From: Gammaproteobacteria bacterium
GTDB taxonomy: Bacteria; Pseudomonadota; Gammaproteobacteria; UBA6429; Thiohalophilaceae
Direction of reading: 5' to 3'
Assembly (NCBI GenBank): GCA_029881995.1
Contig: JAOULO010000006.1
Coordinates: 1 to 64,000, forward strand
Length of the DNA: 64,000 bases
The notes beneath the pieces were generated by a model. That model saw nothing but the letters and a program-made list of their open reading frames with translations. It did no database searches and was not told the origin of the DNA. The number at the start of each line of letters is the position of its first letter. Position 1 is the first letter of the stretch. This document shows positions 5,912-22,252 of the stretch, one piece after another. The translations under genes were made by a program, and so were the position numbers.

Positions 5912-7090
5912 ATGTTCATTAAGACACAAACAATAGGTTTTGATGTGACTATTTCAGACATTATAAAAACTGAATTTAACCTGAGTGACGAACTCATGTA
6001 CCTGAATCACGCCGCAGTTGCCCCCTGGCCTGAGCGCACAAAGCAGGCTGTTTGTGATTTTGCCAGTGAGAACGCCCATTTTGGTTCAAAAAACTATCTC
6101 AAATGGGTTGAGCATGAATCGGAATTGCGCAGTATGCTGGCGACCTTGATCAATGCACCGTCCAGCAATGATATTGCACTTTTAAAAAGCACATCGGAAG
6201 CTTTGTCTGTTGTTGCCCATGGTCTTGACTGGAATGCAGGTGATAATGTCGTCATCAGTGATCAGGAGTTTCCTTCTAATCGTATAGTCTGGGAATCTCT
6301 GTCCTCATATGGTGTAGAGCTTAACCAGGTTGACCTGTCATCCGCTAAATCACCTGAAGTGGCACTTATCAATGCTTGCGATGATCATACCCGCCTATTG
6401 GCAATTAGCTCAGTTCAGTATGCAACTGGCCTACGCATGGATTTACCTATGTTAGGTGAATTTTGTCGGCAACATCAGATTTTCTTTTGTATTGATGCGA
6501 TTCAGAGTATTGGAGCCCTTCAATTTGATGTACAGCAATATAAAGCTGATTTTGTCATGGCCGATGGTCACAAGTGGATGCTGGGGCCTGAGGGATTGGC
6601 CCTGTTCTACTGCCGAGCTGAATTACGTGAGCAGGTAAAGCTCCACCAGTATGGTTGGCATATGGTAGAACATGCCCATGATTTTACTCGAACGGACTGG
6701 GAGCCGGCCAAAAGTGCGCGACGCTTTGAATGTGGTAGTCCCAATATGCTGGGTGTTCACGCCTTAAGAGCCAGCATTTCTCTCCTGCTTGAGGTGGGCA
6801 TGAGCAGTGTGGAGCAAAACCTGTTGGAACGGACAGAGTTTGTATTCAATGAAATTAACCGTTCTGACAATCTTCAGCTTGTGAGCCAGACTGAAGCCGG
6901 TCGATTTGCAGGCATAAGCACCTTTTCGCATAATTCGGCAGATCCTGAATTGCTCTATCGCTGGCTAATGTCCAAAGGTGTGATGTGTGCACCCCGAGGA
7001 GGTGGAATACGCTTCTCACCCCACTTCTATACCCCACTATCGACTATTGAGTCGGCGGTACATCTTGCCGATAACTATCCAGCAGATTGA
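5912..7090 (+). CDS. Class V aminotransferase family PLP enzyme
   Basis: PLP-dependent enzyme of the cysteine desulfurase/class V aminotransferase fold, 392 residues. Visible features are YLNHAAVAPWP at the N-terminus, the PLP-ring aspartate in FCIDAIQSIG (about residue 195), the Schiff-base lysine K221 in MADGHKWMLGPEGLA, and the C-terminal domain ending GGGIRFSPHFYTP. The mobile cysteine loop of true desulfurases is not evident, so an amino-group transfer or carbon-sulfur/nitrogen lyase role is as likely. The substrate cannot be read from the sequence. An alternative GTG start lies near 5945. It is a single gene upstream of the fad operon, separated by 112 bases. Confidence 0.8.
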   Translation: MFIKTQTIGFDVTISDIIKTEFNLSDELMYLNHAAVAPWPERTKQAVCDFASENAHFGSKNYLKWVEHESELRSMLATLINAPSSNDIALLKSTSEALSVVAHGLDWNAGDNVVISDQEFPSNRIVWESLSSYGVELNQVDLSSAKSPEVALINACDDHTRLLAISSVQYATGLRMDLPMLGEFCRQHQIFFCIDAIQSIGALQFDVQQYKADFVMADGHKWMLGPEGLALFYCRAELREQVKLHQYGWHMVEHAHDFTRTDWEPAKSARRFECGSPNMLGVHALRASISLLLEVGMSSVEQNLLERTEFVFNEINRSDNLQLVSQTEAGRFAGISTFSHNSADPELLYRWLMSKGVMCAPRGGGIRFSPHFYTPLSTIESAVHLADNYPAD

Positions 7091-7202
7091 CCTGGATTAA
7101 GTATTGCTAGCCTTTGATTGCCTATACTTATATGAGGCTAAGCTATATTTAATAAGAATAAAGCAGAAATTGGAAAGTTAACCTACTGACGATGAGGTTA
7201 TA

Positions 7203-8162
7203 ATGGATCTTGGAATCAGACGCCTGATTAGTCGTTGGATTACTAATTCTTTGATGAAGGAAGAAGCAGGGGAATCTTACAGCACCCCGCTGTATGATTT
7301 TGACCGACTTTGCTATGAACTACGCCCAGGTGATGTTCTTCTCAATGAGGGGCGCAGTCATGTATCTGATGTCATCAAGATGGCCACTCAATCTCCCTGG
7401 ACCCATTCAATGCTTTACATTGGTCGTCTTTATGATATTGAGAATCCCATCGAACGTGCCAGGGTTAAAGCCAACTACCCGGGTGATCCCAATGATCAAT
7501 TAGTGATCGAAGCCTTATTGGGCAAAGGCACCATAATTACCGCACTTAAAGAATATAAGGATGAGCATATTCGAATTTGCCGGCCCAAAAACCTGATGCC
7601 CCACGATGCTCAAAAAGTCATTTCCTTTTGTATTAATCAGGTTGGCCTGGATTATGACGTAAGACAAATCTTTGATTTGCTCCGTTTCATGTTTCCTTAT
7701 TCATTTTTACCAAGAAAATGGCGTTCCAGTTTATTTGCCAAAAATCCGGGTGCCCAAACACGCACGGTCTGTTCAACTATGTTGGCCGAGGCCTTTCATT
7801 CGGTCAAATTTCCGATCCTGCCTTTTGCTGAAAAAACAGAAAACGGAAAAATCAGATTGTTCCAGCGTAACCCTCGACTTTATACACCTAAGGATTTTGA
7901 TTACTCACCTTATTTTGACATTATCAAGTATCCATTCTTTGGTTTAGATGATGTTTCGATATACAAGCGCCTGCCCTGGGAAAATGAGGAGGTCTATTGC
8001 AATGATTTGAATGACTGTTATCTCAAGGCATCTCATGAGCCTGTTCAAATTGAAAGCAAAGGTGAATTTCCCGATTACAAGACTGTCGAAATAGATATAA
8101 ATGCCGAAAAAGATCTACCGGCAAATGAGGTAGTTAAAAAGAAACAACGACAAACTAACTAA
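7203..8162 (+). CDS. YiiX-like permuted papain-fold amidase/hydrolase
   Basis: Circularly permuted NlpC/P60-type (YaeF/YiiX) protein of 319 residues. The fold is shown by RPGDVLLNEG (41-50), the putative catalytic histidine H68 in SPWTHSMLYIG, an acidic residue E103 in VIEALLGKG, and the putative catalytic cysteine C190 in TRTVCSTMLAEAF. No signal peptide or lipobox is seen. A GAGG ribosome site lies five bases before the ATG. It is only 22 bases upstream of fadE and probably begins the beta-oxidation operon. Members of this superfamily include amidases and lipid-modifying LRAT-like enzymes, so acyl-lipid hydrolysis is plausible here but is inferred from the neighbours. Confidence 0.78.
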   Translation: MDLGIRRLISRWITNSLMKEEAGESYSTPLYDFDRLCYELRPGDVLLNEGRSHVSDVIKMATQSPWTHSMLYIGRLYDIENPIERARVKANYPGDPNDQLVIEALLGKGTIITALKEYKDEHIRICRPKNLMPHDAQKVISFCINQVGLDYDVRQIFDLLRFMFPYSFLPRKWRSSLFAKNPGAQTRTVCSTMLAEAFHSVKFPILPFAEKTENGKIRLFQRNPRLYTPKDFDYSPYFDIIKYPFFGLDDVSIYKRLPWENEEVYCNDLNDCYLKASHEPVQIESKGEFPDYKTVEIDINAEKDLPANEVVKKKQRQTN

Positions 8163-8184
8163 TATTGTTAGTAAGGATACCAAG

Positions 8185-10455
8185 ATGGACGATCAGACAC
8201 GCCACACAAATGAAGAAAGTTTTAAACTAAAGTGGATCAGTGGCCCACTTTTAAAAATGTTCCGAAAAGTCACCCCGGCCATGTCACAAACTGAACGTGA
8301 GGCCATCGATGCCGGTAGCGTTTGGTGGGATGGCGATCTGTTTAGCGGAAAACCCAAATGGAAAAAACTTCGCAATGTCCCTGCATCTCAGTTAACGACG
8401 GAAGAACAGGCCTTCATGGATGGGCCCGTTGAAGAGCTGTGTAAAATGCTCGACGACTGGAAGATGACGAATGAAGACTATGATATGCCCCAGGAAGCCT
8501 GGCGGTATATTAAAAATAAGGGTTTTTTAAGCATGATCATCCCCAAGGAATACGGAGGCCTGGATTACTCTGACCGGGCCCATTCCGAAGTGGTCATGAA
8601 AATCTCAACTCGCAGTATCTCGGCGGCCGTTTCTGTGATGGTGCCCAACTCATTGGGTCCAGGTAAGCTGATTCTGGAATATGGCACTCAGGAACAAAAA
8701 GACCATTACCTGCCACGGCTTGCCAAGGGACAGGAAATCCCCTGCTTTGCTCTAACTGCGCCCGATGCAGGTAGTGATGCCGGCTCTATTCCTGATTACG
8801 GCATTGTCTGCAAACAGGAATTTGAAGGTAAAAAAGATGTTCTGGGTATTAGACTCACCTGGAACAAGCGATATATCACTTTAGGTCCAGTCGCGACGAT
8901 TCTTGGTATGGCCTTTAAACTCTACGATCCAGAGCATCTGATCGGTGAAGAAGAAAACCGAGGCATTACCCTGGCACTGATTCCCACTAACCATCCCGGT
9001 GTCAACATCGGTCGTCGCCATAATCCTCTTAATATGGTGTTTATGAACGGCCCCAACTGGGGTAAAGATGTCTTCATCCCCATGGATTGGATCATCGGTG
9101 GCCAGGAGCGAGTTGGTCAGGGCTGGCGTATGTTAATGGAATGCCTGTCTGATGGTCGGGCCATTTCACTCCCTGCCCTTAGTGTGGGTGGTGGCAAGAT
9201 GTGCAGTCGTGTCGTCGGTGCTTATGCGAGAGTCCGTCGCCAGTTCAAAATGCCAATTGGTAAATTTGAAGGTGTAGAAGAAGCACTGGCGCGTATCGCC
9301 GGTAATACCTACCGGATGGATGCCGCACGTACATTAACCCTCAGTGCACTTGATATGGGTGAGAAACCATCGGTTATCTCTGCGATAGTAAAATATCACC
9401 TCACCGAAGGAATGCGTCGTATCGTTAATGATGCCATGGATGTTGTGGGTGGTGCTGGTATCTGTCTAGGACCCAATAATCTAATAGGCCGGGCCTACCA
9501 GGCATTGCCAATCAGTATTACGGTTGAAGGGGCCAATATTCTGACCCGCTCGATGATTATCTTTGGTCAGGGGGCGATTCGCTCTCATCCTTATATCTTC
9601 AAAGAAATGGAAGCCATGGCGGAAGTGGACCATAAGATAGGACTCTACAAATTTGATCGTGCCTTTACGGCGCATATTTATTTTGTGATTCGAAATTTCT
9701 GGCGCTCCCTGTTCCATGGTCTAACAGGTGGTCGCCTTATCCCGGCACCGGGTAATCGCTATACACGTCGTTATTATCAGAAACTAACCAGAATGAGTTC
9801 CGCCTTTGCCTTTGTTTCAGACATGGCCCTGTTAATTTTAGGTGGTTCACTTAAGCGTCGTGAAAAACTATCTGGCCGACTCGGGGATATTCTGAGTGAA
9901 CTCTATATTGCATCTGCGGTTATAAAACGCTTTGAAGATCAGGGTTGTCCGGAAGAAGATGTTCCCCTGATGCGCTGGTCCTGTGATCAAAGCCTCTACA
10001 ATATACAAAGTGCCATTGATGACTTTATGAAAAATATGCCCGTACGGCCTCTTAATTATGTTCTGCACTGGCTGGTCTTTCCCTGGGGTCGCTGTTTCCG
10101 TAAACCCAGTGACAAACTGGGACACGAGGTCGCCAGTATTATTATGAGCCCGTCTGCAGCACGTGATCGACTCACTGTTGGTATGTATCAGCCTACCGAT
10201 ATGGATGAACCTATCGGTCGTCTGGAAGATGCGTTAATGAAGGTGATGGCGGCTGAGCCCATTGAAAAACGTTTGCGTAAGGAAACACGTGGTTATGATC
10301 CGGGTATTAAGGGAATGGATGGATTGATTGATAAAGGCGTGGCAGACGGTATTATTAACATGGACGAAGCGACTGTTTTACGGGATGCGGAAGCGGCACG
10401 TAGTACAGTCATTCAGGTTGATGACTTTCCCTTTAATCTTGGTAAGGAGGCCTGA
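8185..10455 (+). CDS. fadE: Acyl-CoA dehydrogenase FadE
   Basis: FAD-dependent first enzyme of beta-oxidation, making trans-2-enoyl-CoA. At 756 residues it is about 60 shorter than E. coli FadE because the N-terminal membrane helices are absent; it starts MDDQTRHTNEES. The acyl-CoA dehydrogenase core runs from about residue 85 to 450 with IIPKEYGGLDYSDRA, CFALTAPDAGSDAGS and VVGGAGICLGPNN, and the likely catalytic base in TVEGANILTRSMI. A FadE-specific C-terminal helical domain (DUF1974 type) follows from about 470. An AAGGA site precedes the ATG. It is followed three bases later by fadI. Confidence 0.93.
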   Translation: MDDQTRHTNEESFKLKWISGPLLKMFRKVTPAMSQTEREAIDAGSVWWDGDLFSGKPKWKKLRNVPASQLTTEEQAFMDGPVEELCKMLDDWKMTNEDYDMPQEAWRYIKNKGFLSMIIPKEYGGLDYSDRAHSEVVMKISTRSISAAVSVMVPNSLGPGKLILEYGTQEQKDHYLPRLAKGQEIPCFALTAPDAGSDAGSIPDYGIVCKQEFEGKKDVLGIRLTWNKRYITLGPVATILGMAFKLYDPEHLIGEEENRGITLALIPTNHPGVNIGRRHNPLNMVFMNGPNWGKDVFIPMDWIIGGQERVGQGWRMLMECLSDGRAISLPALSVGGGKMCSRVVGAYARVRRQFKMPIGKFEGVEEALARIAGNTYRMDAARTLTLSALDMGEKPSVISAIVKYHLTEGMRRIVNDAMDVVGGAGICLGPNNLIGRAYQALPISITVEGANILTRSMIIFGQGAIRSHPYIFKEMEAMAEVDHKIGLYKFDRAFTAHIYFVIRNFWRSLFHGLTGGRLIPAPGNRYTRRYYQKLTRMSSAFAFVSDMALLILGGSLKRREKLSGRLGDILSELYIASAVIKRFEDQGCPEEDVPLMRWSCDQSLYNIQSAIDDFMKNMPVRPLNYVLHWLVFPWGRCFRKPSDKLGHEVASIIMSPSAARDRLTVGMYQPTDMDEPIGRLEDALMKVMAAEPIEKRLRKETRGYDPGIKGMDGLIDKGVADGIINMDEATVLRDAEAARSTVIQVDDFPFNLGKEA

Positions 10456-10457
10456 GG

Positions 10458-11855
10458 GTGGCTGAGAAAAAAACAACAGTAAAAAAGAAAAAGCCATTAG
10501 AAAAAAAAGAAACCGTGAATGAGACAGTAACAAGTACAACGACAAAATCAGGGGTAACTCAAACCTCTCTGGGTTGTGGTCGCGCCGTCTATATCGTTGA
10601 CGGTGCCCGAACCCCTTTCCTAAAGGCTAAAGGCAAACCAGGCCCCTTCCCTGCTGCTGATCTTGCAGTGGGCTGTGCGATGCCCTTAGTTGCACGGCAG
10701 CCCTTTGATGCTTCGGATATTGACGAAGTGGTGGTCGGTTGTGTGATGCCAAGTGCCGATGAGGCCAATATTGCAAGAATTTTATCGTTACGAATTGGTT
10801 GTGGAAAACATGTTCCTGCCTGGACCGTGCAACGTAATTGCGCCTCTGGTTTGCAGGCCCTTGATTGTGCAGCCGTTGAGATTGCCTTAGGTCGTGCAGA
10901 TATCGTTTTGGCAGGTGGCGTGGAATCCATGAGTCATGCACCGGTACTTCTGAATAATGACATGGTGGGTTGGTTGGGTGCATGGATGGGGGCGCGTAGC
11001 TGGCAACAGCGAATAAAAGCCCTGCTTGCGCTACGCCTCAAATTTTTCAAACCCATTATCGGCTTACTACGAGGCCTGACTGATCCGGTTGTTGGTTTGT
11101 CTATGGGACAAACAGCAGAAAATATTGCCCATCGTTTTGGGATTACTCGTGAACAGATGGATAATTTTGCGGCGAGGAGCCATCAACGGCTGGCCAGTGC
11201 ACAGGATAATCAGGTACTCGATGAGATTGAGGCGATATATGATACCCGTGGTCATGCCTATACTGATGATGATGGGCTACGCCGAGATTCTGAACCCGGC
11301 AAACTGGCCAAATTAAAGCCCGTATTTGATAAACCTTTCGGTAATGTAACAGCAGGTAATAGTGCACAGATTACCGATGGTGCGGCCATGTTAATTCTGG
11401 CCAGTGAAGATGCGGTGAAAAAATACAATCTTCCGATACTGGGCAAAATTATTGATAGCCACTGGGCAGGTCTTGAACCGGCACAAATGGGATTGGGACC
11501 GGTTCATGCTATTACTCCCATTTTAAAGAGAAACAATTTCAGTTTTAAAGATATAGATTATTGGGAAATCAATGAAGCCTTTGCTGCCCAGGTGCTGGCC
11601 TGTCTTGCGGCCTGGCAGGACAAGGACTATTGCACCAATGAACTGGGATTAAAAGATACTCTGGGTGAAATAAACCAGGATAAACTGAATATCGATGGTG
11701 GCGGTGTCAGTATTGGCCATCCAGTCGGCGCCAGTGGGGCACGAATTGTTTTACATTTATTAAAAACACTTGAACGAAACAAAGCTAAACGCGGTATGGC
11801 AAGCCTATGTATAGGCGGTGGCCAGGGTGGCGCCATGTTGATTGAACGCGTTTAG
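10458..11855 (+). CDS. fadI: 3-ketoacyl-CoA thiolase (FadI/FadA type)
   Basis: Thiolase that cleaves 3-ketoacyl-CoA to acetyl-CoA and a shortened acyl-CoA, last step of beta-oxidation; 465 residues, GTG start overlapping the Shine-Dalgarno GGAGG at the end of fadE. Catalytic parts are all present: nucleophile cysteine in NCASGLQALD, NEAFAAQ, GHPVGASGAR and the final cysteine in CIGGGQGGAML. The insertion around residues 165-200 resembles FadI. The first 40 residues are Lys/Thr-rich and unlike normal thiolases; they may be a tether or a disordered tag. The gene lies between fadE and the fadJ-like gene, its partner in the trifunctional complex. Confidence 0.92.
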   Translation: MAEKKTTVKKKKPLEKKETVNETVTSTTTKSGVTQTSLGCGRAVYIVDGARTPFLKAKGKPGPFPAADLAVGCAMPLVARQPFDASDIDEVVVGCVMPSADEANIARILSLRIGCGKHVPAWTVQRNCASGLQALDCAAVEIALGRADIVLAGGVESMSHAPVLLNNDMVGWLGAWMGARSWQQRIKALLALRLKFFKPIIGLLRGLTDPVVGLSMGQTAENIAHRFGITREQMDNFAARSHQRLASAQDNQVLDEIEAIYDTRGHAYTDDDGLRRDSEPGKLAKLKPVFDKPFGNVTAGNSAQITDGAAMLILASEDAVKKYNLPILGKIIDSHWAGLEPAQMGLGPVHAITPILKRNNFSFKDIDYWEINEAFAAQVLACLAAWQDKDYCTNELGLKDTLGEINQDKLNIDGGGVSIGHPVGASGARIVLHLLKTLERNKAKRGMASLCIGGGQGGAMLIERV

Positions 11856-11868
11856 GATTGGGGAAAAC

Positions 11869-13899
11869 ATGACTAATAATAATTACAAGAACTGGAAAAT
11901 TGATCAGGATAATGATGGTATTGTCTGGCTGCATCTGGATAAACCAGATAGCCAGGCCAATGTCCTTTCACAGGAAGTTTTGCATGAACTCAAAGAGATC
12001 ATCGCCGATCTTGAGAAACAAACCCCACGTGGGGTTATCTTTATATCTGATAAAGATAGCGGCTTTATTGCCGGTGCTGATATCAAAGAATTTCCTCTAA
12101 TTGAGTCTGAAGAACAGGCCCGTGAAGTATTAAACCTGGGTCATTCCATTTGCAATGGTATTGAAAACCTCTCCTGTCCGACAGTTGCAGTTATCCACGG
12201 CTTTTGCCTTGGCGGCGGCATGGAACTGGCACTTGCCTGTCGGTATCGCATAGCCGATACCGATCCAAAATGTAAAATGGGACTGCCTGAGGTCAAGCTT
12301 GGGATACACCCCGGTTTTGGAGGTACGGTACGTATGATTCGCCAGGTTGGAGTGATTAATGGCCTTGATGCCATGTTGACGGGGCGAAATATTTCATCAC
12401 GTATTGCAAAAAGAATTGGGCTTATTAATTATGCAGTACCAAGGCGTCACCACATAAATGCCGCTCGTAGTCTGATTTTTAAAGCACCCAAACCATTCAA
12501 GCTTCCCTTCTGGAACAAAATTCTGAACCATAAACAGGTTCGTCCCTGGGTAGCGAAAATGATGACGAAAAAAGTAGCTCAAAAGGCCAATCGTTCTCAC
12601 TACCCTTCCCCCTATGCCATGATCGATCTCTGGGTGCGCTGTTATGACGACCATAAGACAATGTTGCAGGAAGAAATTAATTCTTTCGTTGGACTAATCG
12701 TTGGAAAGACTGCGCAGAATCTTATCCGAGTCTTTTTACTAAGTGAACGATTAAAATCACTTGGTAAGGCAGGTGATTACAAGCCGAAGCATGTTCATGT
12801 TATCGGTGGTGGTGTGATGGGTGGTGATATTGCCGCCTGGTGTGCCTTTCGAGGTTTCAAGGTGACTTTACAGGATCGTCAGGTAGAAACACTGGCCAAA
12901 GTAAAAAAGCGAGCCTACGGACTTTACAAAAAACGCCTGAAAGATAGACTATTGATTACCGGCGCCCTTGACCGACTCATTCCCGATATTAAAGGTGATG
13001 GTGTTAAGACAGCTGATATTATAATTGAAGCCATCTTTGAAGATGCTCAGGTCAAGCGAGACCTGTTTGCTGAAATCGAACCAAAGATGAAAAAAGATGC
13101 CATTCTAGCTACCAACACCTCAAGCATTCCACTGGATGAATTGAATACTATCCTGAAGAAACCAGAACGCCTGGTGGGACTACACTTTTTCAATCCTGTT
13201 GCCATGATGCCACTGGTGGAAATTGTCCATAGCCCTAAAACTTCAGATGATATCACCAATAAAGCCGCTGCCTTTACCCGTCGTATTGATAAACTGCCAT
13301 TACCTGTTACCAGTACTCCGGGTTTTCTGGTTAATCGAGTTCTCATGCCCTATCTCATGGAGGCTGTCGAACTGGTAGAGGAAAACATCCCACTGGCTCT
13401 GATCGATAAAGAGGCCCTTGATTATGGCATGCCCATGGGACCAATCGAACTTGCGGACACTGTTGGTCTTGATATTTGTCTTAAAGTGGCTGAGATACTA
13501 TCCCAGCATATGGATATAGCCGTCCCCGAACGGTTACGCAAAATGGTAGAAAAAGGAAATCTGGGTAAAAAGACCGGCAAAGGGTTTTATACTTTTAAAA
13601 ATGGCAAACCCGTCAAACCAGCTATTCCAAAAGATTACCATCCTCCTACTGATTTACAGGATCGCATGATCATGAGAATGGTTAATGAAGCTGTTGCCTG
13701 TCTACGTGACAAAGTAGTTGATGATGCGGATCTAGGTGATGGCGGAATTATTTTTGGCACTGGCTTTGCCCCCTTCCGTGGTGGCCCATTTCACTACGTT
13801 GAAAGCAGGGGTAAAGATCAGCTTGTAAAATTACTTGACCAACTAGAGCACAGGCATGGCCCACGCTTTGCGGCAGATAAGGGCTGGAAAGAACTATAA
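11869..13899 (+). CDS. fadJ: Multifunctional enoyl-CoA hydratase/3-hydroxyacyl-CoA dehydrogenase (FadJ/FadB type)
   Basis: Bifunctional beta-oxidation subunit, 676 residues from MTNNNYKNWKID; GGGGA lies ahead of this ATG, and the ATG nine codons upstream is inside the end of fadI. Residues 1-190 form the crotonase domain with the oxyanion-hole motifs DKDSGFIAGADIKEF and HGFCLGGGMELALACRYRIA. Residues 305-480 form the NAD-binding dehydrogenase (HVIGGGVMGGDIAAW; ATNTSSIPLDEL; LHFFNPVAMMPLVEIV), then the C-terminal 3HCDH domain (TPGFLVNRVLMPYLMEAV, GKKTGKGFY). It pairs with the thiolase just upstream. FadJ versus FadB cannot be settled by eye. Confidence 0.92.
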   Translation: MTNNNYKNWKIDQDNDGIVWLHLDKPDSQANVLSQEVLHELKEIIADLEKQTPRGVIFISDKDSGFIAGADIKEFPLIESEEQAREVLNLGHSICNGIENLSCPTVAVIHGFCLGGGMELALACRYRIADTDPKCKMGLPEVKLGIHPGFGGTVRMIRQVGVINGLDAMLTGRNISSRIAKRIGLINYAVPRRHHINAARSLIFKAPKPFKLPFWNKILNHKQVRPWVAKMMTKKVAQKANRSHYPSPYAMIDLWVRCYDDHKTMLQEEINSFVGLIVGKTAQNLIRVFLLSERLKSLGKAGDYKPKHVHVIGGGVMGGDIAAWCAFRGFKVTLQDRQVETLAKVKKRAYGLYKKRLKDRLLITGALDRLIPDIKGDGVKTADIIIEAIFEDAQVKRDLFAEIEPKMKKDAILATNTSSIPLDELNTILKKPERLVGLHFFNPVAMMPLVEIVHSPKTSDDITNKAAAFTRRIDKLPLPVTSTPGFLVNRVLMPYLMEAVELVEENIPLALIDKEALDYGMPMGPIELADTVGLDICLKVAEILSQHMDIAVPERLRKMVEKGNLGKKTGKGFYTFKNGKPVKPAIPKDYHPPTDLQDRMIMRMVNEAVACLRDKVVDDADLGDGGIIFGTGFAPFRGGPFHYVESRGKDQLVKLLDQLEHRHGPRFAADKGWKEL

Positions 13900-13917
13900 T
13901 TACAGAGGGAGAGGACA

Positions 13918-15717
13918 ATGGATAAACTTCTCGATACCATCAATCCTGAGACAGCAGTTAGTCTATCAGGTCTTTTTTATGAACGCGTTCAACGTACTCC
14001 AGATAACGTTGCCTATCGATATTATGACAATGCCACATCCAGTTGGGCTGAATTGACCTGGCGTCAGACAGCGCAACAGGTAGCACGATGGGTGCAGGCC
14101 CTGAAGAATGAAGGACTGAATAAAGGTGATCGAGTTGCACTGATGCTGCGCAACTGTCCATATTGGGTTATCTATGAACAGGCGGCACTTGCAGCTGGCT
14201 TGGTTATTGTTCCCCTCTACACAAATGATCGAACTGAGAATGCCGTTTACATCGCAAATGATGCTGATGTTAAAGTGTTATTATTTGAAACAGATGAACA
14301 ATGGCAAACCCTTAAGCCTTCATTAGGAGAATTAAACAGCATAAAACGTTTTGTCAGTCTGGATAAAGTTAATGATACTTCCGAAGGTCGATTAGTCTAC
14401 AGTGATGACTGGTTGCCGGATACTACACCTGAATTAAGTAAGCCGGACATTGGTAAAGATGAATTGTCCAGTATTGTATACACATCAGGTACTACTGGTC
14501 GGCCTAAAGGTGTCATGCTCAGCCATTACAATATTCTTTCCAATGCCTATGCCAGTAGCCAGTGCGATACCTTTTTAACCTCGGATCAATTCCTCTCCTT
14601 TCTGCCCCTTTCACATATGTTTGAGAGAACGGCTGGCTATTACATGCCCATGATTGCTGGCAGCACAATTAACTATGCCCGATCCATTGAACAACTGGCG
14701 GAAGATCTGGTTGCCATTAAACCCACAGTGCTTGTTACTGTGCCACGTATTTTTGAACGGGTTTATAATAAAATTCATACTCAACTTGCTGCCAAATCCC
14801 CTGTCGCCCAAAAACTGTTTAATGCGGCTGTTGAAATTGGCTGGCATAAATTCCTGGTCAGACAAAAACGTGCATCCTGGCACCCTAAATTATTATTGTG
14901 GCCGATTTTGAACATCCTGGTAGCAGGAAAAATCATGGCCAAACTGGGTGGTAATATGCGTCTTGCTGTAAGTGGTGGTGCTCCATTAACGCTGAATATT
15001 GCCAAGACTTTCATTGGTCTGGGACTGGAGATTAGTCAGGGTTACGGTATGACAGAATTAAGCCCGGTGGTTTCTACTAATCGACTTTCTGACAATGAAC
15101 CTGGTAGTGTTGGGCAAACACTTTCTGGTGTGGAAGTTAAACTGGGTGAGCGTGATGAGCTGCTGGTCAAGGGACCAAACGTGATGTTGGGTTACTGGAA
15201 CAATGAGCAGGCAACCAAGGAAATTCTCCAGGCTGATGGCTGGTTACATACTGGTGATATTGCCAAGATTGAAAATGAACACATCTATATTACAGGTCGT
15301 ATCAAGGAGATCATTGTCCTGGCCAATGGTGAAAAAGTCCCTCCCACTGATGCCGAAATGGCCATAGCCACGGATACCCTGTTTGAACAGGTCATGGTGA
15401 TTGGTGAAGGTAAGGCATTCCTTAGTGCCATTACCGTGCTGAATCCAGACATATGGAACGATGTGGCTGCTCAGGCAGGTGTCGATCCTAATGCCACTGA
15501 AAGTCTAAATTGTGAGGCCGTCTGTAAGATAGTTATCGACAGAATTAAAGAGAAAATGTTCGAATTCCCGGGGTATGCCAAAATTGTACGCGTTCATAAT
15601 ACATTGGAACCCTGGACCATCGAAGATGGGTTGATCACCCCCAAGATGAGTTTAAAAAGAAATAAACTGGCCGACAAATATTCGAAACAAATTGAAAAGC
15701 TCTATGCGGGGCATTAG
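13918..15717 (+). CDS. Long-chain acyl-CoA synthetase (AMP-forming)
   Basis: Activates fatty acids to acyl-CoA through an acyl-adenylate; 599 residues. ANL-superfamily motifs are clear: P-loop YTSGTTGRPKGVMLSH (about 190), SGGAPLTLNIAKTF, GYGMTELSPVVSTN, LHTGDIAKIENEHIYITGR and the C-terminal GEKVPPTDAE. The size and the sequence after GYGMTE resemble the FadD15/ACSL group rather than E. coli FadD. Binding site GGGAG precedes the ATG and the gap to the hydratase gene is 18 bases, so it is part of the fad operon and feeds it with acyl-CoA. Confidence 0.9.
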   Translation: MDKLLDTINPETAVSLSGLFYERVQRTPDNVAYRYYDNATSSWAELTWRQTAQQVARWVQALKNEGLNKGDRVALMLRNCPYWVIYEQAALAAGLVIVPLYTNDRTENAVYIANDADVKVLLFETDEQWQTLKPSLGELNSIKRFVSLDKVNDTSEGRLVYSDDWLPDTTPELSKPDIGKDELSSIVYTSGTTGRPKGVMLSHYNILSNAYASSQCDTFLTSDQFLSFLPLSHMFERTAGYYMPMIAGSTINYARSIEQLAEDLVAIKPTVLVTVPRIFERVYNKIHTQLAAKSPVAQKLFNAAVEIGWHKFLVRQKRASWHPKLLLWPILNILVAGKIMAKLGGNMRLAVSGGAPLTLNIAKTFIGLGLEISQGYGMTELSPVVSTNRLSDNEPGSVGQTLSGVEVKLGERDELLVKGPNVMLGYWNNEQATKEILQADGWLHTGDIAKIENEHIYITGRIKEIIVLANGEKVPPTDAEMAIATDTLFEQVMVIGEGKAFLSAITVLNPDIWNDVAAQAGVDPNATESLNCEAVCKIVIDRIKEKMFEFPGYAKIVRVHNTLEPWTIEDGLITPKMSLKRNKLADKYSKQIEKLYAGH

Positions 15718-16125: not shown

Positions 16126-17169
16126 ATGCAACAGGATCAACTCATTGAATATATTAAATCACTGGTACCATTGAGTGATATTAAAAAAGAAGAGAATCAG
16201 AAAGAGCTCTTCAAAAATATTGTATTGGGTAAATCCCCAAAAGATAATCTTCTGGTCAATATTGACTTACCAAAGACAGATACCTTTTATTTAGTCGATG
16301 GTGAACTGGAAATCACTGATTCACTTGGGAACACTATTAAGCTTAATTCTACAAATTCGCAATGCAGGTTTCCCATTGGGTTCAACCAATCTGACAAATT
16401 TTCAGTTAAAACATGCTCCGAGGTTATTTATTTAAAGATAGATACCGAAACACTTGATGCGTTATTAACCTGGGACCAGGTTACATCCCCTCTTCTGAAA
16501 AAGCCAAGCCACTCTCAAGGGGGGGATGAAACACATTGGATGTCCCGTATCCTGGAGCTTGAATTATTTCAGCGCATTCCTCCGGTCAATATACAGGCTA
16601 TGTTTCTTCGGTTTGAAATATCCGAATATGAGCAGGAGGAAATAATTATTGAACAGGACACACCGGGTGATTATTACTATGTCATCAAAACAGGTCGATG
16701 TGCTATTTATCGCTCAGATGATGTAAAAGATGTACCACTACAACATAAACTGGCAGAACTGGGACCTGGAGACAGTTTTGGTGAAGAGGCCCTGGTATCC
16801 GATAGTCTACGAAATGCTACCGTTGTTATGCGGGAGGCCGGTGAGCTGGCTCGATTGTCCAAGGAAAACTTTCTCACATTACTAAAGGATCCTGTAATCA
16901 AGTCTGTTACTGCTGAGGAAGCCACGGAACTGGTTTCAAAAGGCGGTGTTTATATTGATGTCCGCACAGCCAACGAGTATCAACAGCAGCATCAGGAAAA
17001 CAGCCTCAACCTGCCTCTGAGTACCATACGAGAGCATCTGTCTGAACTGGATAAGAACAAGTCGTATGTCGTTTATTGTGACTCTGGCTCCCGCAGTGCC
17101 GCTGCCTGCTACATCCTGTCACAGCACGGCTTTGCTGCATATTTACTAGACAACACTAATAATCAATAA
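16126..17169 (+). CDS. Cyclic nucleotide-binding/rhodanese fusion protein
   Basis: A 347-residue cytoplasmic protein with three parts. Residues 40-125 look like a degenerate CRP-type beta roll. Residues 145-260 are a good cyclic-nucleotide-binding domain with the phosphate-binding cassette FGEEALVSDSLRNATV (218-233) and its key arginine R229. Residues 262-347 are a rhodanese domain with IDVRTANEY and an active-site loop CDSGSRS whose cysteine is C318. No DNA-binding helix-turn-helix is visible, so this is an effector rather than a CRP-like regulator: it could couple cAMP to sulfur transfer or act as a redox switch. It follows the thioesterase by 18 bases and precedes the TPR-barrel gene by 113. 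Confidence 0.85.
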   Translation: MQQDQLIEYIKSLVPLSDIKKEENQKELFKNIVLGKSPKDNLLVNIDLPKTDTFYLVDGELEITDSLGNTIKLNSTNSQCRFPIGFNQSDKFSVKTCSEVIYLKIDTETLDALLTWDQVTSPLLKKPSHSQGGDETHWMSRILELELFQRIPPVNIQAMFLRFEISEYEQEEIIIEQDTPGDYYYVIKTGRCAIYRSDDVKDVPLQHKLAELGPGDSFGEEALVSDSLRNATVVMREAGELARLSKENFLTLLKDPVIKSVTAEEATELVSKGGVYIDVRTANEYQQQHQENSLNLPLSTIREHLSELDKNKSYVVYCDSGSRSAAACYILSQHGFAAYLLDNTNNQ

Positions 17170-17282: not shown

Positions 17283-18593
17283 ATGCCTTTCAGAACAAGC
17301 CGACTACTGCTGATAATCCTCACCAGCCTGACTCTGGTGTATCCTGCCTATGGGGATGAATTCAGTCAGGCCAGAAAGCTTCTAAAACAAAATAAAACCA
17401 AACAGGCCTATGACTTTCTCGTAAAGGAAGAAGGCTATCATATGGGTGAACCAGATTTTGATCTCTTACTAGCCCAGACCGCACTTAAGGCCCGTCTCTG
17501 GCATGAGGCAATTTTTGCATTTGAGCGTGTACTGATTCACAACCCAGGTAATGTCCGGGCTCGTGTTGAAATGGCCATAGCCTATTTTCAGATTAAGGAA
17601 TATGAGAATGCTGAACGTCATCTTGATATGGTGATTAAGGCGAAGCCCAGTGAGGAAATCAGAGTTGTATTAGAAAAATATAAAGAACAGATTAATGAAA
17701 CGATGTCTGCCAGGCGGCACAGGTTTTCGGGGTTTCATCAATTCAAACAAGGTTGGGATAGTAATATTAATAGTGCTACCAATGAATCTGAGATTAGATT
17801 GAATATTCCTGGAGGGAGTTATCGACCCGTCGAAGGGGTAAGTAAACAGACAGACGATACATTCTCTGAGCTGGTAAATAGAATAAATTACGAGTACCAA
17901 CTGAGTGTTAATTCCCATTTTACTAACAGCCTGGGTTATTCGATCAGAGAAAACAATAATGAAAAATTTGATACCCAAAATGCAGATATCAGTATTGCCT
18001 ATAGTCGAACTACAGGCTTCGGTAAGTTTTCAATACCGCTGAGTTATCAGGCCAGTTGGCTGGATGAGAAAGAACTGCGAAATATCGGTTCAATAGGTTT
18101 GAGCCTGAATCGCTCAGGAACTGTTTTTACCCAATATGCTATCCAGTATGGAGAAGTCCGCTATCCTGGTCAGAAGGCTCTGGACGTGGATCAGGTGGTT
18201 TATAGTTATGTCATCGGGACAAATGACAATACCAGCCGAATTAATCAGTTATACGCCCTGTTCTATGGAGATGAAACTGAACGGGATAGTGTCTATAAAT
18301 TCAATGCCCGTGAGTACATGGGGTTACAACTAAAATTCCCCATGCGACTGACAAGCCAGCAATATGTGACTCCTCGTCTGGTTTATCAAGAATCTCGGTA
18401 CAAACAGCAACATCCCTTCTTTTTTCAATCACGCGAAGATAAGCATTCCAGTTTTAATCTGAACTGGGACTGGTATCTGAGTCAAAACTTGCAGCTCAAT
18501 GGCCAGGTTGGCCACTCAGTCAATAATTCTACTGTGGATTTATACACTTACGACCGAAACACCATCTTTGTAGGAACCACCTACAAATACTAA
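17283..18593 (+). CDS. TPR plus outer-membrane barrel protein, Slam/type XI secretion-like
   Basis: A 436-residue exported protein. Residues 1-24 are a signal peptide (hydrophobic LLLIILTSLTLV, cleavage near YPAYG). Residues about 28-145 are tetratricopeptide-like repeats (EFSQARKLLKQNKTKQAYDF; LWHEAIFAFERVLIHNP; NVRARVEMAIAYFQIKEYENAERHL). Residues about 150-436 are alternating polar/aromatic strands with short turns, ending GTTYKY, as in an outer-membrane barrel of some 14 strands. TPR followed by a DUF560-size barrel is the plan of Slam (surface lipoprotein assembly modifier) translocators. The gene just downstream encodes an exported protein with a TbpB-like C-terminal domain, the type of cargo such proteins carry. 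Family assignment is by architecture only. Confidence 0.66.
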   Translation: MPFRTSRLLLIILTSLTLVYPAYGDEFSQARKLLKQNKTKQAYDFLVKEEGYHMGEPDFDLLLAQTALKARLWHEAIFAFERVLIHNPGNVRARVEMAIAYFQIKEYENAERHLDMVIKAKPSEEIRVVLEKYKEQINETMSARRHRFSGFHQFKQGWDSNINSATNESEIRLNIPGGSYRPVEGVSKQTDDTFSELVNRINYEYQLSVNSHFTNSLGYSIRENNNEKFDTQNADISIAYSRTTGFGKFSIPLSYQASWLDEKELRNIGSIGLSLNRSGTVFTQYAIQYGEVRYPGQKALDVDQVVYSYVIGTNDNTSRINQLYALFYGDETERDSVYKFNAREYMGLQLKFPMRLTSQQYVTPRLVYQESRYKQQHPFFFQSREDKHSSFNLNWDWYLSQNLQLNGQVGHSVNNSTVDLYTYDRNTIFVGTTYKY

Positions 18594-18778: not shown

Positions 18779-18784
18779 ATGAAA

Positions 18785-20029
18785 ATGAAAATACTACAAC
18801 GTATGTTACTGACCTGGGTTATTGTGATGGTTACCACCATTGCAACTATCCCAAATGTTCATGCACAGGATCAGGCAGCTGTAGTGATTATTGCTACGGG
18901 TGATTTCTATGCGATGAATAAATCGCAACAAAAGCGTAGCCTGCAACGACGTTCGAAGGTCTTTGTCGGTGATACTATATCGACAGGTAAAAATAGTCGT
19001 GCTCAGGTACGCTTTATTGACGGTGCTGTGTTGTCACTGCGTCCTGAATCTGAGATGAAGATCCATAAATACAATTATGGTAAATCAAAGGCACAGGAAG
19101 GTAGCTGGATGACCCTTATCAAGGGTGGCTTCCGTACTATCACTGGTGCGATTGGTAAGAAACACTACAAAGTTAGTACCAGTATGGCCACTATCGGTAT
19201 TCGTGGCACACACTATGAGGCTGTCATTAATGATCAACAGCTCTATGTGGCGCTGTGGGATGGTGGTGTAACCCTTTCTAATGATGCCGGTGAAGTCGAT
19301 CTGGGACTTGGAGCTGATTACAACTTTGGTATGGTTCAGAGTAATACGATTGAACCACAAGGTCAGCTGGATCCACCTGAAGCCATTGTGAATGACACTC
19401 AGCCAGTAATTGCACCAGATCTGAGTAAAGATGAGTCTGGATCTACTACAACGACTTCTGAGACTACGGATGAAAGTCTGGCAACGGTCTCTGATGAAAG
19501 CTGGAATGATCTAACTACATTGGTATCATCGGGTTCAACGACTACTAGCTCTGGTGGTACTACATCAGACGGTGGTACTACATCAGACGGTGGTACTACA
19601 GTTACTATGCCTACTTCAGGTTATGGTATTTACACGGTAGCGACAGACCTGTCTGGTACCCCAACAACCGGTAATATCACAGCAACAGGCAGTACCGACT
19701 CGTTTTCATCTTTCAATATGAATGCTACAGTCAATTTTGCCTCGGCTGAGATCAGCGGAACACTAACGGCGACCACCATGTCAGCTGGTGTTTCAAATGA
19801 CTGGGATATGACATTCAGTGGTAGCCCAGGTGCTGGCAGCGGTGTTTCAGGTACTGACTTCAGTATGTCAGGAACTGGGCTTAAGAACAGTATTGATCCT
19901 GCCACAGTTGATATCAGCGGTACCTTCAGCGGTTCAACGGGTGAGAACATGGCAGGTACTGTAACTCTGTCAGACGGTTCTACCACTGAAACCGGGACCT
20001 TCAGTGCACCAGGTACCTATACACCATAA
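18785..20029 (+). CDS. Exported FecR-domain protein with TbpB-like C-terminal barrel domain
   Basis: A 414-residue secreted protein. I chose the second ATG (18785) because GGAGGG lies seven bases before it but only one base before the ATG at 18779. A signal peptide (LLTWVIVMVTTIATI, cleavage after VHA) is followed by a FecR domain (about 32-175) with VFVGDTISTGKNSRAQVRFIDGA, ATIGIRGTHYEA and ALWDGGVTL. Then comes a Pro/Ser/Thr/Gly linker with an 18-bp repeat. The last 130 residues are glycine-rich strands, VNFASAEISGTLTATT, MTFSGS, ISGTFSGSTGENMAGTVTL and TETGTFSAP, which read like the C-terminal eight-stranded barrel of TbpB/Slam cargo proteins. No lipobox, so probably a soluble or tethered secreted protein. 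It converges on the cyclase gene with a gap of three bases. Confidence 0.72.
   Translation: MKILQRMLLTWVIVMVTTIATIPNVHAQDQAAVVIIATGDFYAMNKSQQKRSLQRRSKVFVGDTISTGKNSRAQVRFIDGAVLSLRPESEMKIHKYNYGKSKAQEGSWMTLIKGGFRTITGAIGKKHYKVSTSMATIGIRGTHYEAVINDQQLYVALWDGGVTLSNDAGEVDLGLGADYNFGMVQSNTIEPQGQLDPPEAIVNDTQPVIAPDLSKDESGSTTTTSETTDESLATVSDESWNDLTTLVSSGSTTTSSGGTTSDGGTTSDGGTTVTMPTSGYGIYTVATDLSGTPTTGNITATGSTDSFSSFNMNATVNFASAEISGTLTATTMSAGVSNDWDMTFSGSPGAGSGVSGTDFSMSGTGLKNSIDPATVDISGTFSGSTGENMAGTVTLSDGSTTETGTFSAPGTYTP
19553..19600 (+). repeat. 18-bp tandem repeat in the FecR-protein linker
   Basis: The unit GGTGGTACTACATCAGAC occurs twice exactly (19553-19570, 19571-19588) with a partial third copy to 19600. 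It encodes GGTTSD repeats in the linker between the FecR domain and the C-terminal barrel. Perfect identity at the DNA level suggests recent slippage, so copy number may vary between strains without breaking the frame. Confidence 0.9.
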
Positions 20030-20032
20030 ATA

Positions 20033-22252
20033 TTATTTTTCCCGCCGTTCAAAGACCCCATCCCATTGGGGTCCAGGCGGATTTTTTCTAAACCAGTCAA
20101 TACGTTCCAGATAAAGATGATAAAGTGGTTTATCATTATCCTGCAATAAGTCTTCAAAAATCTCATTAGCTGCCTTGAAGTTCTGCACTCTATACAAACG
20201 TAGGGCTTCTAAATTACGTTCCAGCTCATACATTAGTGGTTTAGTTTCTTCACCGACTCGACATACTGGGTTATAAACCTTGATGGGACGAGAGGTACCT
20301 TTTACGACAATCAAATCAAGTTCCTGACAAATAAAATGATTTTTAACCTGTTCATAGGTTTTTTCACCTATTACCAATGGCAGGTCATAATAACGGGTCA
20401 GGCCCTCAAGACGAGAGGCCAGGTTGACCGAATCTCCAATGACTGTATAAGAACGTCGATATTCCGATCCCATGTCACCAACATTCATCACTCCGGTATT
20501 AATACCAATACCTATCTCAAAAGGTGGGATACCCTCTGCCTCGAATTCTATTTTGAGTGATTTGACCGCTTCCAGCATACCAAAGGCGGCTTCAACAGAA
20601 TTGACTGCATGATTTTCATCGACAAGGGGGGCTCCCCAGAAGGCCATGATCATGTCACCAACATATTTGTCGATGGTTCCCCGGCTTTCAAAAATAACCC
20701 GGGTCATAGGTGTAAAGAAGCGGTTCAACATATCTTTGAGTTTACTGGCCGTGAGAGCCTCCGAGATATTGGTAAAACCACAGATATCTGCGAACAATAC
20801 CGACATTTCACGACTGACACCTTCAAACCCATAATGCTTTGGATTGTCGGTCATCTCATCGACCAGCTCTCTGGGAATGTATTGGCCAAACATATCCTGT
20901 AACTGTGATTTACTTTCAGCCTCTGTCAAAAATCCATAAGCAAGGTTAACAGCGGATAAAACAAAAGCCTGCAGCAAAGGTAGAGCTACGGATAATACAA
21001 TACCTTGCTGGTTCCACATCCAGATATTGAAGTAGGTGATAACAGAAATAACTGTCAGGGCAAAAAATATCTTCAAATAGGGATTGGCAAAATAAGCCAG
21101 TACAAAGACCAGTAACAAGCCACTGACAATTAATACAACCAGATTAGCCCCACTCGCCCAGACAGGTTCTGCTGGAAATTTATCATCCAGTATTCCCGCT
21201 ACGATATTCGCATGGACTTCAACACCAGGATACACACTTTGCATGGGAACAGCACGAAGGTCGAACAGGCCTTCGGCAGTTGTTCCGATGAATACTATGG
21301 CGTTATTTAAAATACCATCCGGTACCTTGTTATGTAATACATCCGTGGCTGATACATAAGGAAAAGAATTATAAGGACCTTTAAATGGGATAATGACTCT
21401 GCCCTGACCATCGGTGGGTATGATCTTTTTCTCACTCAGACCAATACCAGTGATGTTGGTAACACCACTGATCTGCTCTGTCAGTACCGTAATTTTGTCT
21501 ACCAGTTGAAAAACCCTCGCTGTTTCAAGTGCCAGTGAGGGGTATATTCTATCCTTGTATTTAATTACCAACGGTACGCGTCGAATGATGCCATCAGGAT
21601 CTGCATCAAGAGAGAAGAAGCCAGCGTGTTTCGCGGCCTTTTGTAAAACAGGCAGACTGGCCGTATAGCCCTGCATTTCCGTAACAGTGGAATTGAGTAT
21701 CGTCGGTAGATTATCAGCCGCCAGGCTTCGAGGTAATAAACCAATAGGTTTGACCTTGCTGCGATGGAATATATAGCCCAGTACCACATCCTTGTCTTTC
21801 AGGCTTGTTGCAAATTTTGCATCATTATCAAAATCGCTCATGCGACTTTTTAATACCCGTCTTACCAGATTGGCGCCTGGAACATTTTTGTTTAAATCAT
21901 TAATAATCGTTTTGGCGCTGTTTCTTTCTGGTTCGGTGAACATGACATCAAAGCCAACGACAATAGCCCCACTTTTGAAGAGTTGTTCAAGTAATATTGC
22001 CATTTTGGCGCGGGACCAGGGCCATCGACCCTCATAGCGAAGGCTTTTTTCATCAATATCAACAATAACAACACGTTTATCCTGCTTGACCTGTTTTGGA
22101 AGGGTGGCGCTGAGGCGGAGATCGAAGGCGAGAAGTTCGAGGCGTTGCCGTAGATTAACGGCAGAGTCGTATTTGGTGGTTTGAAACCAGACAAAAGCAC
22201 CAAAGATCAGTAAACCAAGAACAATACTGGTGATTTGTCGTGTGTTCTGCAT
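20033..22252 (-). CDS. CHASE2-domain adenylate cyclase (class III)
   Basis: Membrane signal transducer of 739 residues making a cyclic nucleotide in response to a periplasmic signal. An N-terminal helix (8-24) leads to a periplasmic CHASE2 domain (about 30-355; VVIVDIDEKSL, GRWPWSRAKMA, GFDVMF, PGVEVHANIVAGIL), then three helices (about 368-442) and a class III catalytic domain. Metal aspartates are D489 (FADICGFT) and D533 (KYVGD); the base-specifying lysine K529 with D607 indicates ATP rather than GTP; N610 and R614 (NLASR) are the transition-state pair. It therefore appears active. It is the last gene behind tatD on the minus strand (30-base gap) and converges on the FecR gene. A cyclic-nucleotide-binding protein is encoded 3 kb away. 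Confidence 0.9.
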   Translation of the reverse strand: MQNTRQITSIVLGLLIFGAFVWFQTTKYDSAVNLRQRLELLAFDLRLSATLPKQVKQDKRVVIVDIDEKSLRYEGRWPWSRAKMAILLEQLFKSGAIVVGFDVMFTEPERNSAKTIINDLNKNVPGANLVRRVLKSRMSDFDNDAKFATSLKDKDVVLGYIFHRSKVKPIGLLPRSLAADNLPTILNSTVTEMQGYTASLPVLQKAAKHAGFFSLDADPDGIIRRVPLVIKYKDRIYPSLALETARVFQLVDKITVLTEQISGVTNITGIGLSEKKIIPTDGQGRVIIPFKGPYNSFPYVSATDVLHNKVPDGILNNAIVFIGTTAEGLFDLRAVPMQSVYPGVEVHANIVAGILDDKFPAEPVWASGANLVVLIVSGLLLVFVLAYFANPYLKIFFALTVISVITYFNIWMWNQQGIVLSVALPLLQAFVLSAVNLAYGFLTEAESKSQLQDMFGQYIPRELVDEMTDNPKHYGFEGVSREMSVLFADICGFTNISEALTASKLKDMLNRFFTPMTRVIFESRGTIDKYVGDMIMAFWGAPLVDENHAVNSVEAAFGMLEAVKSLKIEFEAEGIPPFEIGIGINTGVMNVGDMGSEYRRSYTVIGDSVNLASRLEGLTRYYDLPLVIGEKTYEQVKNHFICQELDLIVVKGTSRPIKVYNPVCRVGEETKPLMYELERNLEALRLYRVQNFKAANEIFEDLLQDNDKPLYHLYLERIDWFRKNPPGPQWDGVFERREK

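Follow-up and report, generated by a model that had tools for sequence, protein, structure and literature searches.

What is a FecR domain doing in front of a C-terminal barrel that recalls those of outer-membrane secretion cargo, between the genes of a TPR-barrel outer-membrane protein and of a nucleotide cyclase? This question is raised by a locus in the window analysed here, a stretch of 64,000 nucleotides from a Gammaproteobacteria bacterium of the Thiohalophilaceae (contig JAOULO010000006.1). A sequence-only reading of this DNA had suggested that the end of the FecR protein resembles the C-terminal barrel of TbpB and of Slam cargo. The T11SS carries soluble or lipidated proteins from the periplasm to the outside, and its cargo is considered to be addressed to it by the C-terminal barrel (PMC12282271). 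Most DUF560/T11SS proteins, in turn, are without known cargo (PMC8406197, PMC12282271). We consider it rather likely that secretor and cargo of a T11SS-like system are encoded here, with FecR as the passenger and a coupling to cAMP signalling (for the features see Table 1).

Table 1. Features of the FecR-barrel locus. Positions are those of the window and residues are those of the respective protein.
Feature	Position	Strand	Basis
cNMP-binding and rhodanese protein, directly upstream of the putative secretor	16126..17169	+	Pfam; in 6 fetched loci
TPR (residues 25-140) and 14-strand outer-membrane barrel (146-435), Slam/DUF560-like putative secretor	17283..18593	+	AlphaFold2, hhalign, Slam model
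FecR-barrel protein, 416 aa, no cysteine; predicted soluble T11SS cargo	18779..20029	+	ORF, Pfam, cysteine count
Probable Sec signal peptide, residues 1-29, ...NVHA/QDQ, without lipobox	18779..18865	+	read by eye; lipobox regex scan
FecR domain PF04773, residues 65-164, passenger	18971..19270	+	Pfam 9e-18, 65 bits, cut-off 24
Ser/Thr/Gly-rich low-complexity linker, TTSDGG repeats, about residues 205-276	19391..19606	+	sequence
C-terminal eight-strand TbpB-type barrel (predicted), residues 277-416	19607..20026	+	Pfam, AlphaFold2, PDB profile, Foldseek, shuffles
CHASE2 adenylate/guanylate cyclase, convergent, 3 bp beyond the FecR gene	20033..22252	-	Pfam CHASE2 1e-61, Guanylate_cyc 1e-21

The strand strings that the sequence-only reading had quoted are all found in the translation of 18779-20026, the part it singled out (19625-20026) corresponds to residues 283-416, and the low-complexity linker that it placed before the tail is indeed there. 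The protein is devoid of cysteine and therefore of a lipobox, so that a soluble cargo like haemophilin is suggested. A regex scan detected no lipobox in 42 of 45 FecR-tail ORFs and its matches in the remaining three are doubtful.

The identity of the tail was approached at the levels of sequence profile and fold. The Pfam model TbpB_B_D matches residues 277-410 with 22.3 bits in the whole protein and 25.2 bits in the tail alone, for a gathering cut-off of 26. A control model of 26 tails from other bacterial families, from which the window and the genomes of its own family had been left out, gives 38.3 bits to the window tail, while the highest score among 2,000 shuffles is 11.6 bits and the reversed tail obtains 0.2. 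The sub-threshold match is genuine. Related tails of FecR proteins from the fetched genomes were further assembled in an alignment of 34 rows, most of which display the motif F-x-G-x-x-A...G-x-F; the window tail has a degenerate version of it (FSGSTGENMAGTV). The profile of this alignment matches 29 of all PDB sequences at E<=1 (best 9.8e-07), all of which are T11SS cargo proteins, namely TbpB, LbpB, NHBA/GNA2132, haemophilin and fHbp. Only the profile search was successful in this respect, as the window tail searched in the PDB as a single sequence gave no match. Taken one by one, 12 of the 34 tails match TbpB_B_D (best 5.5e-07). In another class of the phylum, FecR and a TbpB_B_D domain scored above the cut-off (30.3 bits) are united in one protein (L195). 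The FecR-tail model also recognises cargo adjoining typical Slams, such as the TbpB_B_D proteins of L151 and L198.

The AlphaFold2 model of the window tail (144-residue construct, mean pLDDT 91.2) displays eight long strands, which span construct residues 10-17, 37-47, 52-63, 66-76, 88-97, 101-112, 118-126 and 131-143. Foldseek places LbpB, NHBA, TbpB and fHbp at the top of its PDB matches with a probability of 1.00 and a moderate TM of about 0.5. The eight-stranded barrel that the sequence-only reading had anticipated is thus predicted, and the best matches in the profile and structure searches of the PDB are TbpB-type cargo barrels. From profile and model together, the FecR protein is assigned a C-terminal eight-strand barrel of the TbpB_B_D/lipoprotein-C type, and homology and fold support the suggestion that the FecR domain is the passenger of such a barrel.

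The second component is the outer-membrane protein encoded upstream, for which AlphaFold2 predicts TPR helices and 14 long strands (pLDDT 93). Pfam matches TPR_Slam only weakly to the window protein and gives no match of this protein alone to SlipAM (PF04575) at E<=1. The miss probably reflects the limited reach of the model, since relatives in cassettes of the same type pass: 17 of 36 relatives match PF04575, the best with 1.5e-10. An alignment of typical Slam proteins, with SlipAM scores of up to 354 bits, was compared with the cassette outer-membrane proteins by hhalign and yielded a probability of 100% (E 5.4e-41) over 365 columns. Searched against 6,318 ORFs, the Slam HMM retrieves the window ORF with 5.4e-16 and its matches are almost solely neighbours of FecR genes. 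Deprived of its TPR part, the window barrel still obtains 24.8 bits from the Slam model versus 9.4 when shuffled. On these profile comparisons, the protein is classified as a distant Slam/DUF560 (T11SS) homologue over TPR and barrel.

The search proposed in the sequence-only reading, for further FecR proteins that have this tail and a TPR-barrel gene next to theirs, was successful. In 60 regions around FecR matches from Gammaproteobacteria, the order of secretor, FecR protein (with or without barrel) and convergent CHASE2 cyclase recurs. At distant loci the trio alone is kept amid different flanking genes; in L195, where the FecR-barrel protein adjoins SlipAM and a cyclase, it is present in another class. 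The cyclase, a conserved partner that the sequence-only reading had left unmentioned, occurs in 31 of 80 fetched regions, many of whose contigs are short. The association was also visible from the other partners. A FecR gene lies within the fetched flank of 13 of the 14 above-cut-off SlipAM genes from 143 gammaproteobacterial genomes. Of 299 genomes of the phylum searched with the tail only, 10 had a match, which in 8 of them lay no more than about 5 kb from a SlipAM-type gene. Detectable tails and secretor adjacency are not associated in a contingency table (32/10 versus 20/10, Fisher p 0.43), which is blurred because tandem copies count as unlinked, divergent tails are missed (e.g. L098, L109, L116) and gene order is reversed. 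Finally, the distances among tails correlate with those among secretor barrels once the FecR-domain distance is removed (partial r 0.24, a value that 2,000 permutations never attained), in a test that removes species history in part. Given its recurrence in many environmental bacteria, the trio appears to form a secretion-plus-signalling unit that has so far gone unrecognised.

The number of barrels per FecR protein varies from one to four, with two copies in L066 and L067. L068 encodes tandem FecR proteins with four (7397-11398) and three (11549-14668) TbpB-type barrels. In L070 (4974-6711), several frames 3' of the FecR gene contain pieces of barrel, which gives the impression of a multi-barrel tail with frameshifts. 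Large proteins with one or more barrels and without a clear FecR domain adjoin SlipAM in L194 (4635-8252), L196 (2531-5077) and L197 (6170-7864), and possibly represent further T11SS cargo types. One genome contains four tail matches of another kind, exemplified by a 208-aa protein (L199, 3325-3948, genome G489) with neither secretor nor FecR nearby. A search of plasmids returned one weak FecR match.

How could such a unit operate? The FecR protein would cross to the periplasm by Sec and remain unlipidated. There, the neighbouring TPR-barrel protein would recognise its C-terminal barrel, and the outer-membrane pore would move it to the surface or into the medium, as Slam-family pores do with haemophilin and TbpB. 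Export by the neighbouring pore seems to us a likely event. The FecR domain may be the variable working part, with a probable role in extracellular binding. The cyclase would expose its CHASE2 domain to the periplasm and may thereby sense either the FecR protein during its passage or the state of the export step; in the simplest joint model, the cyclase would sense the periplasmic FecR protein, the amount of which would depend on export. A functional contact between FecR and CHASE2 is plausible because a LysM-FecR/CHASE2-kinase operon (PMC5192318) and a Campylobacterota cluster (PMC9239204) bring these partners together. The role of the cyclase in reading the export pathway is proposed with considerable reserve. 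The cNMP-binding/rhodanese protein may possibly read the cAMP of the cyclase, and its gene is linked to the trio only in the close relatives examined. Slightly more speculative still is the full picture of a module widespread in environmental Proteobacteria, in which a Slam-family pore would export a FecR sensor or binder by means of its barrel and a CHASE2 adenylate cyclase would turn the transit or surface state into cAMP.

The same genes can be arranged in a scheme without export. The FecR-barrel protein would then be retained in the periplasm, dock onto the TPR domain of the outer-membrane protein and regulate the CHASE2 cyclase, and its barrel would serve for docking or for ligand binding. 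In favour of this scheme, CHASE2 is a sensor of the extracytoplasmic kind, and in Burkholderia a LysM-FecR protein adjoins a CHASE2 histidine kinase without any secretor (PMC5192318). Furthermore, short tail-less FecR proteins adjoin SlipAM-type secretors at some loci, so that the barrel is not obligatory for pairing. One of these loci belongs to the genome of the window itself (L192): a SlipAM-like gene (6693-8312) is paired with that of a barrel-less FecR protein (8279-9331), followed by a calcineurin-type phosphoesterase (9383-10213) which is possibly a cAMP phosphodiesterase. Relatives hold similar pairs of SlipAM-like and FecR genes. However, the barrel belongs specifically to the type known from T11SS cargo, and the tails are the most variable part of the proteins, with a mean identity of 0.21 versus 0.42 among FecR domains, as expected of exposed or exported parts. 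We therefore regard a purely periplasmic device as unlikely.

A second objection to the secretor/cargo pair is that the barrel could be no more than a remnant or some generic small barrel, while the outer-membrane protein exports or imports another substrate, for instance a polysaccharide like BcsC/EpsL. The outer-membrane protein is weakly similar to EpsL and BBP2_2, and its PDB matches are generic porins and BcsC, the latter being the best fold match; since no Slam structure is present among these matches, the fold search cannot decide on Slam. The Slam similarity is nevertheless far stronger and extends from end to end, polysaccharide genes are absent from the conserved part of the loci, and the tails are not only kept but multiplied up to four copies, which renders this explanation very improbable. 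A reading as a classical FecR anti-sigma regulator whose low-complexity tail arose by accident has the Pfam FecR domain in its favour, but was rejected as next to impossible: a probable signal peptide, read by eye, replaces the cytoplasmic anti-sigma N-terminus, the adjoining genes encode the putative secretor and the cyclase, those inspected include neither a sigma factor nor a TonB receptor, and the accidental origin of the tail is ruled out by its fold (pLDDT 91) and its score above shuffles.

The export of a FecR passenger through a Slam-like pore, if correct, would provide environmental DUF560/T11SS proteins with a concrete and testable cargo type and would tie the T11SS to cAMP signalling. 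Of ten DUF560 clusters, nine lack a characterised member, and most of these come from water and soil (PMC8406197); such clusters would gain a cargo and a role beyond iron uptake and host colonisation. FecR-domain annotations would also have to be read otherwise, as the proteins described here would not be iron-citrate anti-sigma regulators. FecR is not mentioned in the main text of two T11SS surveys (PMC12282271, PMC8406197). A search restricted to open-access papers, with subscription papers, preprints and supplementary tables outside its scope, found none that links FecR to T11SS, DUF560 or surface lipoprotein assembly modifier.

Compared with the known T11SS cargo (TbpB, LbpB, fHbp, NHBA, the haemophilins HphA/HrpC/Hpl and Pls), the FecR-barrel protein is alike in its variable N-terminal part, its predicted C-terminal eight-strand barrel and the location of its gene next to a Slam/DUF560-like gene; its probable Sec-type signal, read by eye, may be a further likeness. 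In contrast, the FecR passenger, the cyclase partner and the occurrence of one to four barrels distinguish the cassette, which also has no TonB receptor and no haem or iron partner. The putative secretor shares with the Slam/NilB DUF560 proteins (SlipAM PF04575) the TPR and 14-strand barrel architecture and profile similarity over most of its length, but it is only about 17% identical to them and lies below the Pfam cut-off. The BiofilmReg operon combines a FecR protein with a CHASE2 sensor as well, yet LysM takes the place of the barrel, a histidine kinase that of the cyclase, and the secretor is absent (PMC5192318). Also comparable is a Campylobacterota cluster of CHASE2 cyclase, phosphodiesterase, FecR and TPR proteins reported in 2022, which the accessible part of the source describes as a putative cAMP pathway with no link to a barrel or to T11SS (PMC9239204). 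The system of secretor, FecR-barrel protein and cyclase proposed here may offer an explanation for that cluster.
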